From Saccharothrix obliqua (GTDB taxonomy: Bacteria > Actinomycetota > Actinomycetes > Mycobacteriales > Pseudonocardiaceae), in contig NZ_JAHXGQ010000004.1 of assembly GCF_019375475.1 (NCBI RefSeq), positions 310,001-374,000 on the forward strand: a stretch of 64,000 bases of DNA, written 5' to 3'. Numbering within the stretch: position 1 is the stretch's first letter; every line of letters starts with the position of its first letter. A program made the translations under genes and the position numbers. The notes beneath the pieces are model-generated. The model made no database searches and was not told the origin of the DNA. It saw only the letters and a program-made list of their open reading frames with translations. This document shows positions 29,081-33,585 of the stretch, piece after piece.

Positions 29081-29375
29081 TCGACACAGGACTGCCCGAA
29101 CGTCCCGAACCACGTCACCCCGGTGCGAATCCACACCGGCAGCCCGGCAGATCAGCGCTCGACACAGGACCGCCCGAACCACGCCACTCCGGCGCGAACC
29201 CACACCGACACCGACAGCCCAGCAGGACCAGCACTCGACACAGGACCCGCCGAACCACGCCACCCCGCTGCCGGTGTCACGCCGACACCGACACCCCAGC
29301 AGGACCAGCACTCGACACAGGACCGCCCGAACCACGTCACCCCGCTGCCAGCGTCACACCGACACCGGCAGCGGG
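29081..29375. repeat. Four-copy tandem repeat with about 77-bp unit
   Basis: Units begin with TCGACACAGGAC at 29081, 29159, 29235 and 29312, so spacing is 76-78 bases. Each continues with a CCGAACCACG-like word and a CACACCGACACCG-like stretch. The last copy runs into the 3' end of the flavin monooxygenase gene and supplies its final codons and stop. I see no RNA fold or protein family in it. Confidence 0.85.
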
Positions 29376-30514
29376 TAGTCCGGCAGGGTCGGGTCCGTCG
29401 CGAACCAGTCGGTCATCTTCAGCATCGCCGACAACACCGGCTTCGAGTTGAACATGGCGTTGCGCGCCCGGATGCGCAACGCGCTCGGCGGCGCGAGGAA
29501 CGGGCCCGCGTTCGCCTTCCTGACCACCTTCGTCAACCCGCGCATCCGGTCCTCGTACCGGCGGAAGGCCACCACGTGGTCACCTCCCGCCACGCTCAAC
29601 TCGCCCGCCAGCACGTACGCGCCGACGATCGCCAGGCCCGACCCGAACCCGCCCAGCGTGTTGCCGTACCCGGCGTCGCCGACGAGTGCGACCCGGCCCT
29701 TGACGCACGTCGTGGTCTCGACGCGGCTGATCGAGTCGAGGTACACGGACTCCGCGTCCGCGACGCGTGCCATCAGCTCCGGCACCCGCCACCCCGCGCC
29801 CCGGTAGGCGGCACGCAGGATGTCGCGCTGCGCGGCCACGTCGTACCGGTCGTAGGTCAGCTCCGCCGACGCGAACACGAAGAACGCCGGAGCTTTCGGC
29901 CCGCCGACCGCCACCATCCGACCCGGCTCGTTGTAGAGCTGCGGCTCGCCGCCGACGTCGCCCAGGTCCACCAACGCGTAGTAGTACCCGAGATGCCGCA
30001 CGTGGTCGCGTTCCGGGCCGAACGCGAGTCGTCGGACCGTCGAGTGGATGCCGTCCGCACCCACCACGAGGTCGAACGTGCGGGGCGCGGCGTGCCGGAA
30101 GGTGACGTGCACGCCGTGCGGCGTCTCGGTCAGCGATGTCACCGAGTCGCCGAACACGTACTCGCACTCCGCTGTCCGCTCGTGCAGCAACGCCGCCAGG
30201 TCACCACGCGGGATCTCGATCTCGCCACCGGTGAACGCGCCGGGGATCACCGCCAAGCGCCGTCCCGAAGCGTCCACGACGGTCTGGTCGACCCCGCCGG
30301 TCTGCCGGGACCGCACCGCGTCCAGCAGCCCCATCCTGGCCAGCACCGCGCGCTGGGTGGGGCCCTTGAAGTCGACGGCCTGCCCGCCCGGACGCGGCGC
30401 GGACGCCCGTTCCACGACGGTGACCACGCAGCCGAGCCGGTGCAGCCAGTGGGCGAGCGCGGGACCGCCGATACCCGCGCCGGAGATGAGGACCGTGGTG
30501 TTCTTCATGGCCAT
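29354..30514 (-). CDS. FAD-dependent monooxygenase (PHBH-like)
   Basis: The 386-residue flavoprotein has the dinucleotide motif ISGAGIGGPALAHWL at the N-terminus, VVGADGIHSTVR (the DG motif) in the middle and VALVGDAGY (the GD motif) near residue 275. These are the three marks of group A aromatic hydroxylases and tetracycline/rifamycin-type monooxygenases. It probably inserts oxygen into an aromatic or polyketide substrate, perhaps a drug. The start is ATG 30514, or 30508 two codons later; neither has a clear ribosome-binding site, so the transcript may be leaderless. An 11-bp-period direct repeat lies just upstream, and the adjacent SARP gene suggests its regulator. Confidence 0.9.
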   Translation of the reverse strand: MAMKNTTVLISGAGIGGPALAHWLHRLGCVVTVVERASAPRPGGQAVDFKGPTQRAVLARMGLLDAVRSRQTGGVDQTVVDASGRRLAVIPGAFTGGEIEIPRGDLAALLHERTAECEYVFGDSVTSLTETPHGVHVTFRHAAPRTFDLVVGADGIHSTVRRLAFGPERDHVRHLGYYYALVDLGDVGGEPQLYNEPGRMVAVGGPKAPAFFVFASAELTYDRYDVAAQRDILRAAYRGAGWRVPELMARVADAESVYLDSISRVETTTCVKGRVALVGDAGYGNTLGGFGSGLAIVGAYVLAGELSVAGGDHVVAFRRYEDRMRGLTKVVRKANAGPFLAPPSALRIRARNAMFNSKPVLSAMLKMTDWFATDPTLPDYPLPVSV

Positions 30515-30530
30515 GAGGTTGGTCGGCGGC

Positions 30531-30551
30531 GCTGACAGTCCGCTGACAGTC
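30531..30551. promoter_or_regulatory. Direct repeat with 11-bp period, candidate SARP binding site
   Basis: GCTGACAGTC occurs at 30531-30540 and again at 30542-30551. SARP regulators bind direct repeats spaced by one helical turn of 11 bp near the -35 region. The repeat lies between the AfsR-type regulator gene and the monooxygenase start, overlapping the regulator's last codons. Confidence 0.5.
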
Positions 30552-33498
30552 ACAGGCCGATGGTTGTCAGCGCCTCTTCCCGGCTCATCGCCGCACCTCG
30601 CGAGTACGCCGCGGCGAACGCCTCCACGCCGATCTCGTCCCGGGCACGCCGCGTCACGCGGGCCACGTCCGGGTCGCCGACACGTGCCGTGCCGCGCAAC
30701 GCCACCGCCACGCCCAACCACAACGCCGCTCGCGCACCGTCCGCCGACTCCGCCCGCCCCTCCACGACCAACGCGACCTCCGACGCCAACAGCGGCGTGC
30801 GGACCGCTCGGAGCGCCTGGTCGTGCCGACGAGCCGCCTCCCGGGGGTCGTCGGCCAGCCTGCCGAGCGCGGTCAGCACCCGGGCGGTCCGCCACCGCGC
30901 GCCGCCCTCCTCCTCGGCGAGGGCCCTCGCCAGCAGGTCCGCGGCGGTCGCGTGGTCACCGGTCGACCGCGCGACCTCGGCCAGACCGAGCAGCGCCTCG
31001 CCGGTCGGCCGGGCGAACCGGGCCGCCGCCCGCGTGAACGCGACGCGCGCCGCGTGCGTCTCGCCTTGCCGCAGCAGGCAACGCCCCTGGTGGCAGAGCA
31101 GTTCGCCGCACTCGTCGGCCGCGCCCAGCGCCTCGTACAACGCCAACGCCTCCGCCCAGCACGCGTGCGCCCGGTCCCACTCGCCGCGCCAGCCCTCGAC
31201 GCGGGCCAGCCAGTCCAGCGACTGCGCCACGCCCCACCGCTCGCCGAGCGCCCGGAAGGACGCCAACGCCGCCGCCATGTCCCGCTCCCCGGCGGCGGGC
31301 GCGCCGTCCAACACCCGCAGCAGCGCGCGGCCGAACCCGGCCAGCGCGGCGTTCCACGGGTCCTCGCCCAGCAACGCGCCCGGATCGGCGTGCGGGTCGA
31401 CCGGCGGACCCACGACCATGCCCCACAACGCCACGCCGAACGGGTGCCGCAGCTCCAGCGAACCCGACTCGACGATCCGCCGCGCCCGTTCCCAGTGCTC
31501 CGCCGCCGGGCGCGGCCACGCGTGCACGACGCAGCTCACGTACTCCTCGGCCAACCCGTCGGGCACGTCGCCGACGAGCAACGCCGCCGCCGCGTCGCCG
31601 GCCTGCGCCCGCCGGCCGCTCAACCACCAGTAGGCGGCCAACGCCGCCACCAGCCGCATACCCGTCTCGCGGTCCGCGTGCCGCAGGGCAGCCATCAGGT
31701 TGTCGTGCTCGGCGGACAGCCGGGCGAGCCACGTGAGCTGTTCCGCTCCCCTCAGGTGCGGATCGGCGCGTTGGGCCAACGCGAGGTGGTAGGCGACGTG
31801 CGCGCGCCTTACGTCCCGTTCCTCGGTTTCGCCCAGTTGTTCCACGCAGAACAGCCGGATCGTGTCGAACATGCGGTAACGGCCGTCCACGACCGTCACC
31901 AACGACTTGTCCACGAGGTCGGCGAGCACTTCGTCCGCGTCCTCGACACCGCACACCGCCTCCACCGCCGCCAGTGGCGCACCACCGGCGAACACCGCGA
32001 AACGACGGGCCAGCACGCGTTCCCGCTCGCCGAGCAGGTCCCAGCTCCACGCGACCACCGCGTGCAGGGTGCGGTGCCGTTGGGCGGCCGTGCGGTCACC
32101 GCGGGAGAGCAGCTTGAACCGGTCGCGCCCGGTCAGCCGGTCGGCGATCTCGGCCGCCGAGAACTGCCGCAGCCTGGCCGCCGCCAGCTCGACGGCCAGC
32201 GGCAGGCCGTCCAGCGCCACGCAGATCGCCGCCACCGCCGCGTCGTCCGGCGGCACACCGGGTCGAACGGCCGCCGCGCGGTCGGTGAACAGGCGGACCG
32301 CGTGGTCCAGGTCGAGCGGTTCCAGCGGGAGCAACGCCTCACCGGTCAGGCCGAGCGGTTCCCGGCTGGTCGCGAGGACGCGCAGCCGGGGGCAGCGGGT
32401 GAGCAGCAGGCGCACCAGGCCGGCGGCCTCCGCCACCACGTGCTCGCAGTTGTCCAGCACCAGCAGCAGGTCCCGGTCGAGCGCCGCGACCAGGCGGGCG
32501 ACCGGGTCCGCGCGGCCCGGCCGCAGCCCCGACTCGCGCACCCCGAGCGCGGCCAGCACGGCGGGCGCGACGGCGTCACCGGCGGTGAGGCCGGACAGGT
32601 CCGCGAAGCACGCGTCCGGCGCGGTCCGGGCGGCGAACTCCACCGCGAGCCGGGTCTTGCCCGTGCCGCCCGGACCGCACACGGTGACCAGCCGGGCGTC
32701 CAGGTCGGCGAGACGGGCCAACTCCTCGTCGCGCCCGACGAAACCCGTCAACGGGGCCGGGACACCACGCCGGGTCACGGGCTCCTCGTTCCGGAGCACG
32801 GCCAGGTGGGCGGCGGCCAGGCCGGGTGTCGGGTCGACGCCCAGTTCGTCGGCGAGCCGCCGCCGTGCGTCCTCGAACTCGGTCAAGGCTTCCGCGGTGC
32901 GGCCTTCCGCGTGCAGCGCGCGCACGAGCTGTTCACGGAACCTCTCACGCAACGGATGCGCCGTCACGAGCGCACGCAGGCGTGCGACCGGTGCGTCCCC
33001 CATGGCGAGTTCGGCGTCCACGAGGTCTTCGGTGGCCGATAGGCGCAACTCCTCCAGACGCGCGGCCTGCGCCACGCCGTGCGGCAGGTCCGCCAGTGCC
33101 GGGCCGCGCCACAGCTCCAGCGCGTCACGAAGCGTGCGCGTGGCGTCCGCGACCCGTCCGGCGGCGAGGAGCGCGCGACCGTCGCGTGCCATCCGCTCGA
33201 AGACGTGCGCGTCCACGTCGTCCGCGTCGACGGCGATCCGGTAGCCGCCGCCGGTGAACTCGACGGAGCCCGGTGGCAGCACCCGGCGCAGCCGCGAAAC
33301 CTGCGCCTGCACCGCGTTGACCGCCTCGGCGGGCGGGTCGTCGCCGTACTGACCCGCGACCAGGCGCTCCAGCGGGACCGGTCGGCCCGGCGTCAGCAGC
33401 AGCATCACCAGCACGGCACGGGGACGCGGCCCGCCGACCGGGACCACCTCCCCGTCGGGCGACCGCACCTCCACCGGACCGAGCACACCGAACCGCAC
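30550..33498 (-). CDS. AfsR-type SARP regulator with NB-ARC and TPR-like domains
   Basis: The protein has 982 residues. It opens with an OmpR-like winged helix (RFGVLGPVEVRSPDG, LLLTPGRPVPLERL, VQAQVSRLRRVL). The BTAD domain follows to about residue 245 (ELGVDPTPGLAAAH). An NB-ARC ATPase has Walker A GPGGTGKTRL and LLLVLDNCEHV, and the rest is helical, TPR-like. AfsR-type SARPs are ATP-dependent activators of secondary metabolism. The start is GTG 33498; GGGGA lies somewhat far upstream, so a short leader is likely. It diverges from the DUF4132 operon. Its direct-repeat candidate lies at the next gene, so the monooxygenase is its most obvious target. Confidence 0.9.
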   Translation of the reverse strand: MRFGVLGPVEVRSPDGEVVPVGGPRPRAVLVMLLLTPGRPVPLERLVAGQYGDDPPAEAVNAVQAQVSRLRRVLPPGSVEFTGGGYRIAVDADDVDAHVFERMARDGRALLAAGRVADATRTLRDALELWRGPALADLPHGVAQAARLEELRLSATEDLVDAELAMGDAPVARLRALVTAHPLRERFREQLVRALHAEGRTAEALTEFEDARRRLADELGVDPTPGLAAAHLAVLRNEEPVTRRGVPAPLTGFVGRDEELARLADLDARLVTVCGPGGTGKTRLAVEFAARTAPDACFADLSGLTAGDAVAPAVLAALGVRESGLRPGRADPVARLVAALDRDLLLVLDNCEHVVAEAAGLVRLLLTRCPRLRVLATSREPLGLTGEALLPLEPLDLDHAVRLFTDRAAAVRPGVPPDDAAVAAICVALDGLPLAVELAAARLRQFSAAEIADRLTGRDRFKLLSRGDRTAAQRHRTLHAVVAWSWDLLGERERVLARRFAVFAGGAPLAAVEAVCGVEDADEVLADLVDKSLVTVVDGRYRMFDTIRLFCVEQLGETEERDVRRAHVAYHLALAQRADPHLRGAEQLTWLARLSAEHDNLMAALRHADRETGMRLVAALAAYWWLSGRRAQAGDAAAALLVGDVPDGLAEEYVSCVVHAWPRPAAEHWERARRIVESGSLELRHPFGVALWGMVVGPPVDPHADPGALLGEDPWNAALAGFGRALLRVLDGAPAAGERDMAAALASFRALGERWGVAQSLDWLARVEGWRGEWDRAHACWAEALALYEALGAADECGELLCHQGRCLLRQGETHAARVAFTRAAARFARPTGEALLGLAEVARSTGDHATAADLLARALAEEEGGARWRTARVLTALGRLADDPREAARRHDQALRAVRTPLLASEVALVVEGRAESADGARAALWLGVAVALRGTARVGDPDVARVTRRARDEIGVEAFAAAYSRGAAMSREEALTTIGL

Positions 33499-33585
33499 GG
33501 TGCGATTGTCCCCGCCGATCCGGTCGGGACTGTCGTACCCCTGCCGTATTGTCCGCCGGGACTGGAGCAACAGGAGGTTTCGGGC

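Follow-up and report, generated by a model that had tools for sequence, protein, structure and literature searches.

A gene for a large SARP regulator is followed, on the same strand, by a flavin-dependent monooxygenase gene, and a short direct repeat lies at their junction. The locus raises the question of whether this repeat is an operator and, if so, which regulator would read it and which gene it would serve. In the window (the whole stretch of DNA analysed here, 64 kb), the 11-bp unit CGCTGACAGTC occurs on the + strand in two gapless copies, at 30530-30540 and 30541-30551, both of which contain the 10-mer GCTGACAGTC (30531-30540 and 30542-30551) with zero mismatches. The perfect 10-bp direct repeat with an 11-bp period described in the first-pass annotation is thus confirmed, the full perfect unit being 11 bp.

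Both genes are located on the - strand. The upstream one (30550..33498, start GTG at 33496-33498) encodes a SARP of 982 aa with a putative DNA-binding part, BTAD, ATPase and TPR, and the downstream one (29354..30508) was identified by domain and solved-relative searches as an FAD-dependent monooxygenase (FAD_binding_3). The repeat indeed sits at the 3' end of the former and upstream of the latter, as had been annotated: the SARP stop codon TGA is the complement of 30550-30552 and overlaps the first 11-bp unit. From this stop codon, the - strand reads TGA-C-TGTCAGCG-GAC-TGTCAGCG-CCGCCGAC-CAACCT-CATGGCC-ATG. The coding strand accordingly has a distal direct SARP-type box GTCAGCG (30541..30547) 2 nt past the stop codon, a proximal GTCAGCG (30530..30536) 11 bp from it, an 8-bp spacer (30522..30529), a putative -10 hexamer of the NANNNT type, CAACCT (30516..30521), 7 nt, and the predicted leaderless start ATG (30506..30508; MKNTTVLISG...).

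No other run of 10 bp or more at period 11 is present in the window. Order-2 Markov simulation yielded on average 0.39 such runs per window, with one or more appearing in 32 of the 100 simulated windows; the repeat on its own merits is therefore not beyond chance, and the functional case is its conserved geometry in other genomes. With one mismatch allowed, the 10-mer had 8 matches in the window against 5.3 expected, i.e. there is no window-wide motif.

Conservation and spacing of the boxed promoter

A search for the monooxygenase across 99 related genomes, its own included, gave matches in 84. The geometry was defined as GTC[AG][AG]C boxes at 11-bp multiples, 8 bp, NANNNT, 6-7 nt and ATG or GTG, and was found in nine of the ten best loci (L002, which is the window, and L003-L011), that is, in the window and in eight of the nine next closest homologues. 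The exception, L009, is the same gene as L242 in the named genomes and has three boxes without the downstream spacing. Among 20 further loci (L012-L031) the geometry was detected by regular expression in L023 only. L018 has many boxes and a start codon farther downstream; because L018 and L094 have boxes yet no start codon at the expected place, not all boxed genes are predicted to be leaderless. By eye, most of L015-L031 (about 48-58% identity; not L018 and L023) have a AACTGTGTCTA...GGACACAGTT-like palindrome in place of the SARP boxes, which suggests another class of regulator, a TetR-type repressor being our guess.

A scan of named public genomes returned 58 loci, 36 at ≥62% identity and 22 lower, the former including Nonomuraea, Streptosporangium, Sphaerisporangium, Actinoallomurus, Amycolatopsis, Actinophytocola, Umezawaea, Dactylosporangium, Virgisporangium and other genera. 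With a slightly relaxed regular expression, the geometry was present in 28, a SARP-domain ORF in 27 and both in 22 of the 36 closer loci; the corresponding figures for the 22 loci below 62% were 1, 5 and 1, and the SARP counts over all 58 did not change with a single-sequence query. Six of the eight misses have, by eye, the same layout with altered boxes (L240, L251, L266, L232, L272 and L253), while in the remaining two, L242 and L275, the layout was not seen. Two more distant loci from Actinomadura (L273 and L281) showed a similar geometry in which GTGAGCG replaces GTCAGCG; both loci hold a SARP, which hints at a joint change of regulator and box sequence. In a tree built from 88 monooxygenases, the boxed label (counting partial geometries) required 7 changes against 29 when shuffled, and the full-geometry label alone required 10.

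To derive a profile, 45 promoters (9 from whole genomes, 36 from named ones) were collected, of which two were dropped for having no start codon. In 39 of the 43 left, the promoters were in register as cTGTCAGCgG.t.GTCg.cGg.cTGTCAGCGgc.cc.gCGA.gcT followed by the start codon, which comes after a gap of 7 nt past the -10 in 34 promoters and of 6 nt in the other five. The register filter required a box-like proximal site and the A and T of the hexamer; the distal box, the degenerate middle box and the C and G before the -10 A lay outside its demands. Per base, the distal box was kept in 39 (G), 38 (T), 39 (C), 37 (A), 38 (G) and 35 (C) of the 39 promoters, the unrequired C before the hexamer in 37 and G as its first base in 35, at which two positions the window has C-C. 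The window array consists of two boxes; in relatives, a third, degenerate box frequently stands between the outer two. Between -20 and -5, 11 of the 43 promoters have a Shine-Dalgarno-like tetramer.

The gap of 6-7 nt predicts a leaderless monooxygenase mRNA, with transcription starting at 30508-30509. An alternative in-frame ATG is present at 30514, but the ATG at 30508 is likelier, since the former would precede the predicted transcription start. The closeness of the repeat to the start codon, remarked upon earlier as unusual, is therefore part of a conserved design in which the start follows the -10 by 6-7 nt. In Streptomyces avermitilis, 22.2% of mRNAs are leaderless and AUG is preferred, as stated in the available portion of PMC8780764.

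The spacing was further assessed in 297 family genomes with the distances left free. With a box distance of 1-26 bp, 128 matches (a few overlapping) were listed in 74 genomes, with gaps of 4 bp (58), 15 bp (60), 26 bp (1), 25 bp (5) and others (4); 119 of the 128 thus fell at 4, 15 or 26 bp, i.e. at periods 11, 22 and 33, and after grouping into 22 sequence clusters the same gap classes (4, 15, 26, 25 and others) counted 6, 9, 1, 2 and 4. When the distance between box and -10 was free to take any value of 0-19 bp, 33 matches resulted: 23 at 8 bp, seven at 19 bp (8 + 11), two at 4 bp and one at 0. Neither pattern, when reversed, had a match in the 297 genomes. A box-to-ATG search without the -10 gave matches in 71 of the 297 genomes and two matches of the reversed control, overlapping matches being listed unevenly. 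Class-wide, the two-box promoter pattern was found in 27 of 394 genomes and its reversed control in none.

Within its own genome (97% complete), the strict adjacent-box pattern occurs once, at the window site; with one mismatch allowed, there were 32 places against seven for the reversed control, and the window site was the only one free of mismatches. A relaxed pattern gave 46 places against seven for the control in 10 relatives, with most gaps unphased. In 11 large regions and 20 kb of the window, the strict pattern had six matches, all at the start of the monooxygenase.

A SARP orthologue is directly upstream in L032-L036, nearby in L039 and convergent in L042, while in genome G062 it is on a different contig from the monooxygenase. 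All eight genomes with a SARP at ≥60% identity (of the 99, own included) have the monooxygenase with the geometry promoter; G039 has the monooxygenase and promoter and no SARP at ≥60% identity. Four boxed monooxygenases (L037, L038, L040 and L041) had no SARP in the fetched flanks, so that these must rely on a different SARP or on a trans-acting one. A conserved cluster around the pair was considered and rejected: among eight leftward genes compared with 11 regions, just two hydrolases matched, weakly, in L039, and on the rightward side L032 alone had matches, to a WGR-type gene and to part of the gene after it. In the fetched flanks, then, the SARP-monooxygenase pair is conserved and nearly all tested neighbours are not, which, together with the single occurrence of the strict pattern, supports the earlier proposal that a single monooxygenase is the local target.

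The regulator and competing readings of the site

The upstream protein scored above cut-off for BTAD (PF03704, 131.7 bits, cut-off 22.1), ATPase (PF13401, 32.2, cut-off 27) and TPR (PF13424, 49.2, cut-off 30.1), and below it for the OmpR-type DNA-binding domain (PF00486, 22.6 bits, cut-off 26.2, E 1.2e-4). Without its first 19 residues (P0001) it aligned to the AfsR SARP domain (8hvr) over residues 2-217, and its best solved relatives were AfsR, then EmbR. With 220.8 bits, the same query remained far under the cut-off of 1430 bits of the AfsR equivalog NF053617 (NCBIfam); by these scores, the regulator is a SARP but not AfsR.

Its own gene is preceded by a -10-like GACAAT (33505..33510, - strand, by eye) 6 nt before the GTG. 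Since a [GC]A[CG]AAT-like hexamer lies, by eye, 6-7 nt upstream of seven of eight SARP starts, the window's included (L034 differs), the SARP mRNA is probably leaderless as well. Autoregulation through the same boxes was considered and rejected, visual inspection of the 110 nt preceding each of the eight SARP starts having revealed no GTCAGC box. In L034 (genome G016), unlike in its relatives, three tandem copies of GGGCAAATCCAACACA are located directly upstream of the SARP gene, which has no clear start codon at the aligned place.

The first-pass annotation took the 11-bp spacing as a sign of SARP binding, and this view is strengthened by the -10 at 8 bp and by conservation beside a large SARP across genera. 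SARP promoters have direct repeats 11 or 22 bp apart and the 3' repeat 8 bp from the -10, according to the accessible text of PMC10936776, and both spacings are found here with the putative -10. We therefore consider it very probable that the repeat serves as operator in a promoter through which a SARP activates the monooxygenase gene. Among the closest known counterparts, as far as the same source describes it, is AfsR-afsS of Streptomyces coelicolor, which likewise combines a large SARP with ATPase and TPR, two 11-bp direct repeats and a poor NANNNT -10 (the suboptimal CACTGT in afsS, CAACCT here); AfsR protomers take one repeat each and contact sigma and the beta flap, and the 8-bp rule holds at our locus (PMC10936776). 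Unlike in that system, the box sequence is a different one here, the target is a lone enzyme gene beside the SARP, and the start is 6-7 nt past the -10. The PimR, SanG and PolR operators (CGGCAAG heptamers) also comprise two or three heptamers with 4-bp spacers, and PimR binding needs two heptamers so spaced; unlike here, the PimR operator lies away from the pimM -35, the pimM leader is 148 nt and the setting is a biosynthetic cluster (available parts of PMC3367932 and PMC5930380).

Another OmpR-type regulator, e.g. PhoP, might bind the boxes, with the SARP a mere neighbour. PhoP and AfsR share direct-repeat recognition at afsS, as outlined in the accessible text of PMC10972967; the repeat CGTT(T/C)ATCGNN given there, however, is unlike our box. 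The genomic association was examined in 40 pattern matches chosen by eye from the family genomes, whose 12-kb regions were checked for a SARP-domain ORF. Such an ORF was present in 20 of 40 site regions versus one of 20 control regions (Fisher p 0.0005), and in 19 versus one with the window's SARP domain as a lone query. The half of the boxed regions in which a SARP was not found speaks for PhoP or a similar protein, but the enrichment argues against it, as does the fact that in many named genomes the gene just before the boxed monooxygenase encodes a SARP, and we regard this alternative as unlikely.

The SARP operator may comprise more than the two direct boxes. A reverse box TGTCAGC (30565..30571, + strand; GCTGACA on the coding strand) is located 23 nt before the distal direct box, within the end of the SARP reading frame, and contributes to the left arm of a hairpin that may form with 30528-30537. 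CTGACA, expected about 0.005 times per 62-nt stretch, precedes the first GTCAGC by 11, 20-23, 32-33, 43 or 53 nt in 22 of 43 promoters, the window included. Compared with even placement, these distances are phased at 10.5 bp with R 0.91 (n=22; 0 of 20,000 simulations as high) in a test conceived after the distances had been seen and on related species that are not independent, and R was 0.88 after collapse to 15 genus-distance pairs. In about half of the cases by eye, the reverse box sits in the conserved end of the SARP frame (...ALT...), as in the window, so coding constraint plays a part; in the others it is intergenic. Promoters of mostly other targets had it in four of 40. A role as an antisense promoter was rejected, since NANNNT 8 bp on, on its own strand, was seen in 0 of 22. 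The simplest reading is that the reverse box would bind a further protomer in the opposite sense.

Alternatively, the inverted arms 30528-30537 and 30565-30574 could fold at the SARP stop into an RNA hairpin acting as a transcription terminator or as a device for translational coupling of the two genes. The arms are perfect over 10 bp (MFE -32.1 kcal/mol), and 19 of 40 promoters have the reverse arm CTGACA in the 45 nt that precede their first GTCAGC; against this, the folding is just 1.6 sd under shuffles (15 of 200 as good), a consensus scan gave no terminator-like site, and the arm is helically phased even where the SARP stop is far upstream, which a hairpin does not need. This makes an RNA role still more doubtful than binding by a PhoP-like protein. 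Finally, a chance repeat in GC-rich sequence, for all its frequency in the simulations, has next to nothing left to recommend it given that the layout is kept at the same place in other genera and that reversed patterns had 0 matches.

Returning to a SARP-dependent operator, the geometry, its conservation, the phasing and the genomic link to SARP genes are observations, from which we infer binding by the SARP of the window, activation, the start site, a signal and a substrate of the enzyme. The large SARP from the upstream gene would bind both GTCAGCG boxes side by side on one DNA face, each protomer occupying one 11-bp repeat, and would replace the -35 element, holding RNA polymerase on the poor CAACCT 8 bp downstream. 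Transcription would start at the ATG or one base earlier and yield the leaderless mRNA, and an additional SARP protomer probably joins by way of the reverse box, some two helical turns upstream. The SARP gene would have its own leaderless-looking promoter; because this one is box-less and has a better -10, the SARP would be made steadily and the enzyme only once a signal switches on the ATPase/TPR part. Not part of the earlier annotation were the -10 and the leaderless start, the reverse box, the relatives' degenerate third box and the wider promoter class.

Among its nearest solved relatives, the monooxygenase has Tet(56), Tet(55), Tet(50) and 6-hydroxynicotinate 3-monooxygenase. It thus resembles tetracycline destructases by sequence but is far under the family cut-off (NF033476, NCBIfam; 193.7 versus 550 bits).

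The wider class of boxed promoters and its targets

Promoters of the same class are present in 74 of 297 family genomes (reversed control 0). By our assessment, genes of export or drug-modifying type begin at 18 of the 40 start codons: nine FAD monooxygenases by N-terminal sequence, three DrrA-type ABC ATPases over the NCBIfam cut-off, three MFS pumps (two tested, closest to LfrA and QepA and under those cut-offs) and three beta-lactamase-fold hydrolases (one tested). A fourth DrrA type, L098, came from the SARP regions. Other targets were a C45 acyltransferase, an S9 peptidase, an amidase, DUF2306 proteins and a weak DUF4386 match. Very short frames were opened in L140, L157, L164, L165 and L173, and L170 may be intragenic; these may not be true starts. 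The promoter class may guard against compounds.

DnrI acts in the daunorubicin cluster, whereas the large SARPs considered here adjoin single genes. DnrI binding at the drrAB/drrC resistance genes is cited, by title, in PMC10972967, and a similar link of SARP to DrrA-kind resistance genes is our guess for L138, L148, L177 and L098. Most medium and large SARPs are not well investigated, according to that recent review in its accessible part (PMC10972967). Among the open-access papers listed, we found no report of SARP boxes before leaderless genes, or of a GTCAGC box, which is weak evidence of absence.

In the literature, SARPs figure chiefly as activators of Streptomyces antibiotic clusters. 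What appears to be the same regulator-enzyme switch is shared by many actinobacteria of the soil. The promoter code (boxes, 8 bp, -10, start codon) permits prediction from sequence of a large SARP's possible target and of the mRNA start, and it points to resistance-like enzymes and pumps that may be induced by the compounds they remove. As a tentative generalisation, in which we have less than even confidence, large SARPs outside Streptomyces could be stand-alone switches guarding one or a few genes of export or drug-modifying type via leaderless promoters rather than biosynthetic clusters; the operator would combine direct boxes with a helically phased reverse box, and the ATPase part would assemble a higher-order SARP complex on sensing a compound.

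Of 15 regions around SARPs, six had boxes (L094, L097-L100 and L103) and nine had none, the latter including two other SARPs of the own genome and the SARP orthologue of G062. A relaxed-box search gave 0 matches near eight of these nine SARPs and 0 in 20 control regions. Because of these nine regions, the box code is, as judged from the flanking DNA, one that covers part of the large SARPs only. The DNA-contacting recognition helix did not clearly separate the SARPs near boxes from the others.

Two further arrangements were observed within the class. The own genome has a second boxed gene of the leaderless type (L143, C44:228265-228317), beyond the strict pattern, which encodes a DUF2306 membrane protein; similar proteins are found at L141, L144, L145 and L166, with a SARP nearby at L166 only. 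Upstream of the DrrA-type gene at L148, three reverse boxes with an 11-bp period stand back to back with the direct boxes, in an arrangement resembling a divergent promoter.
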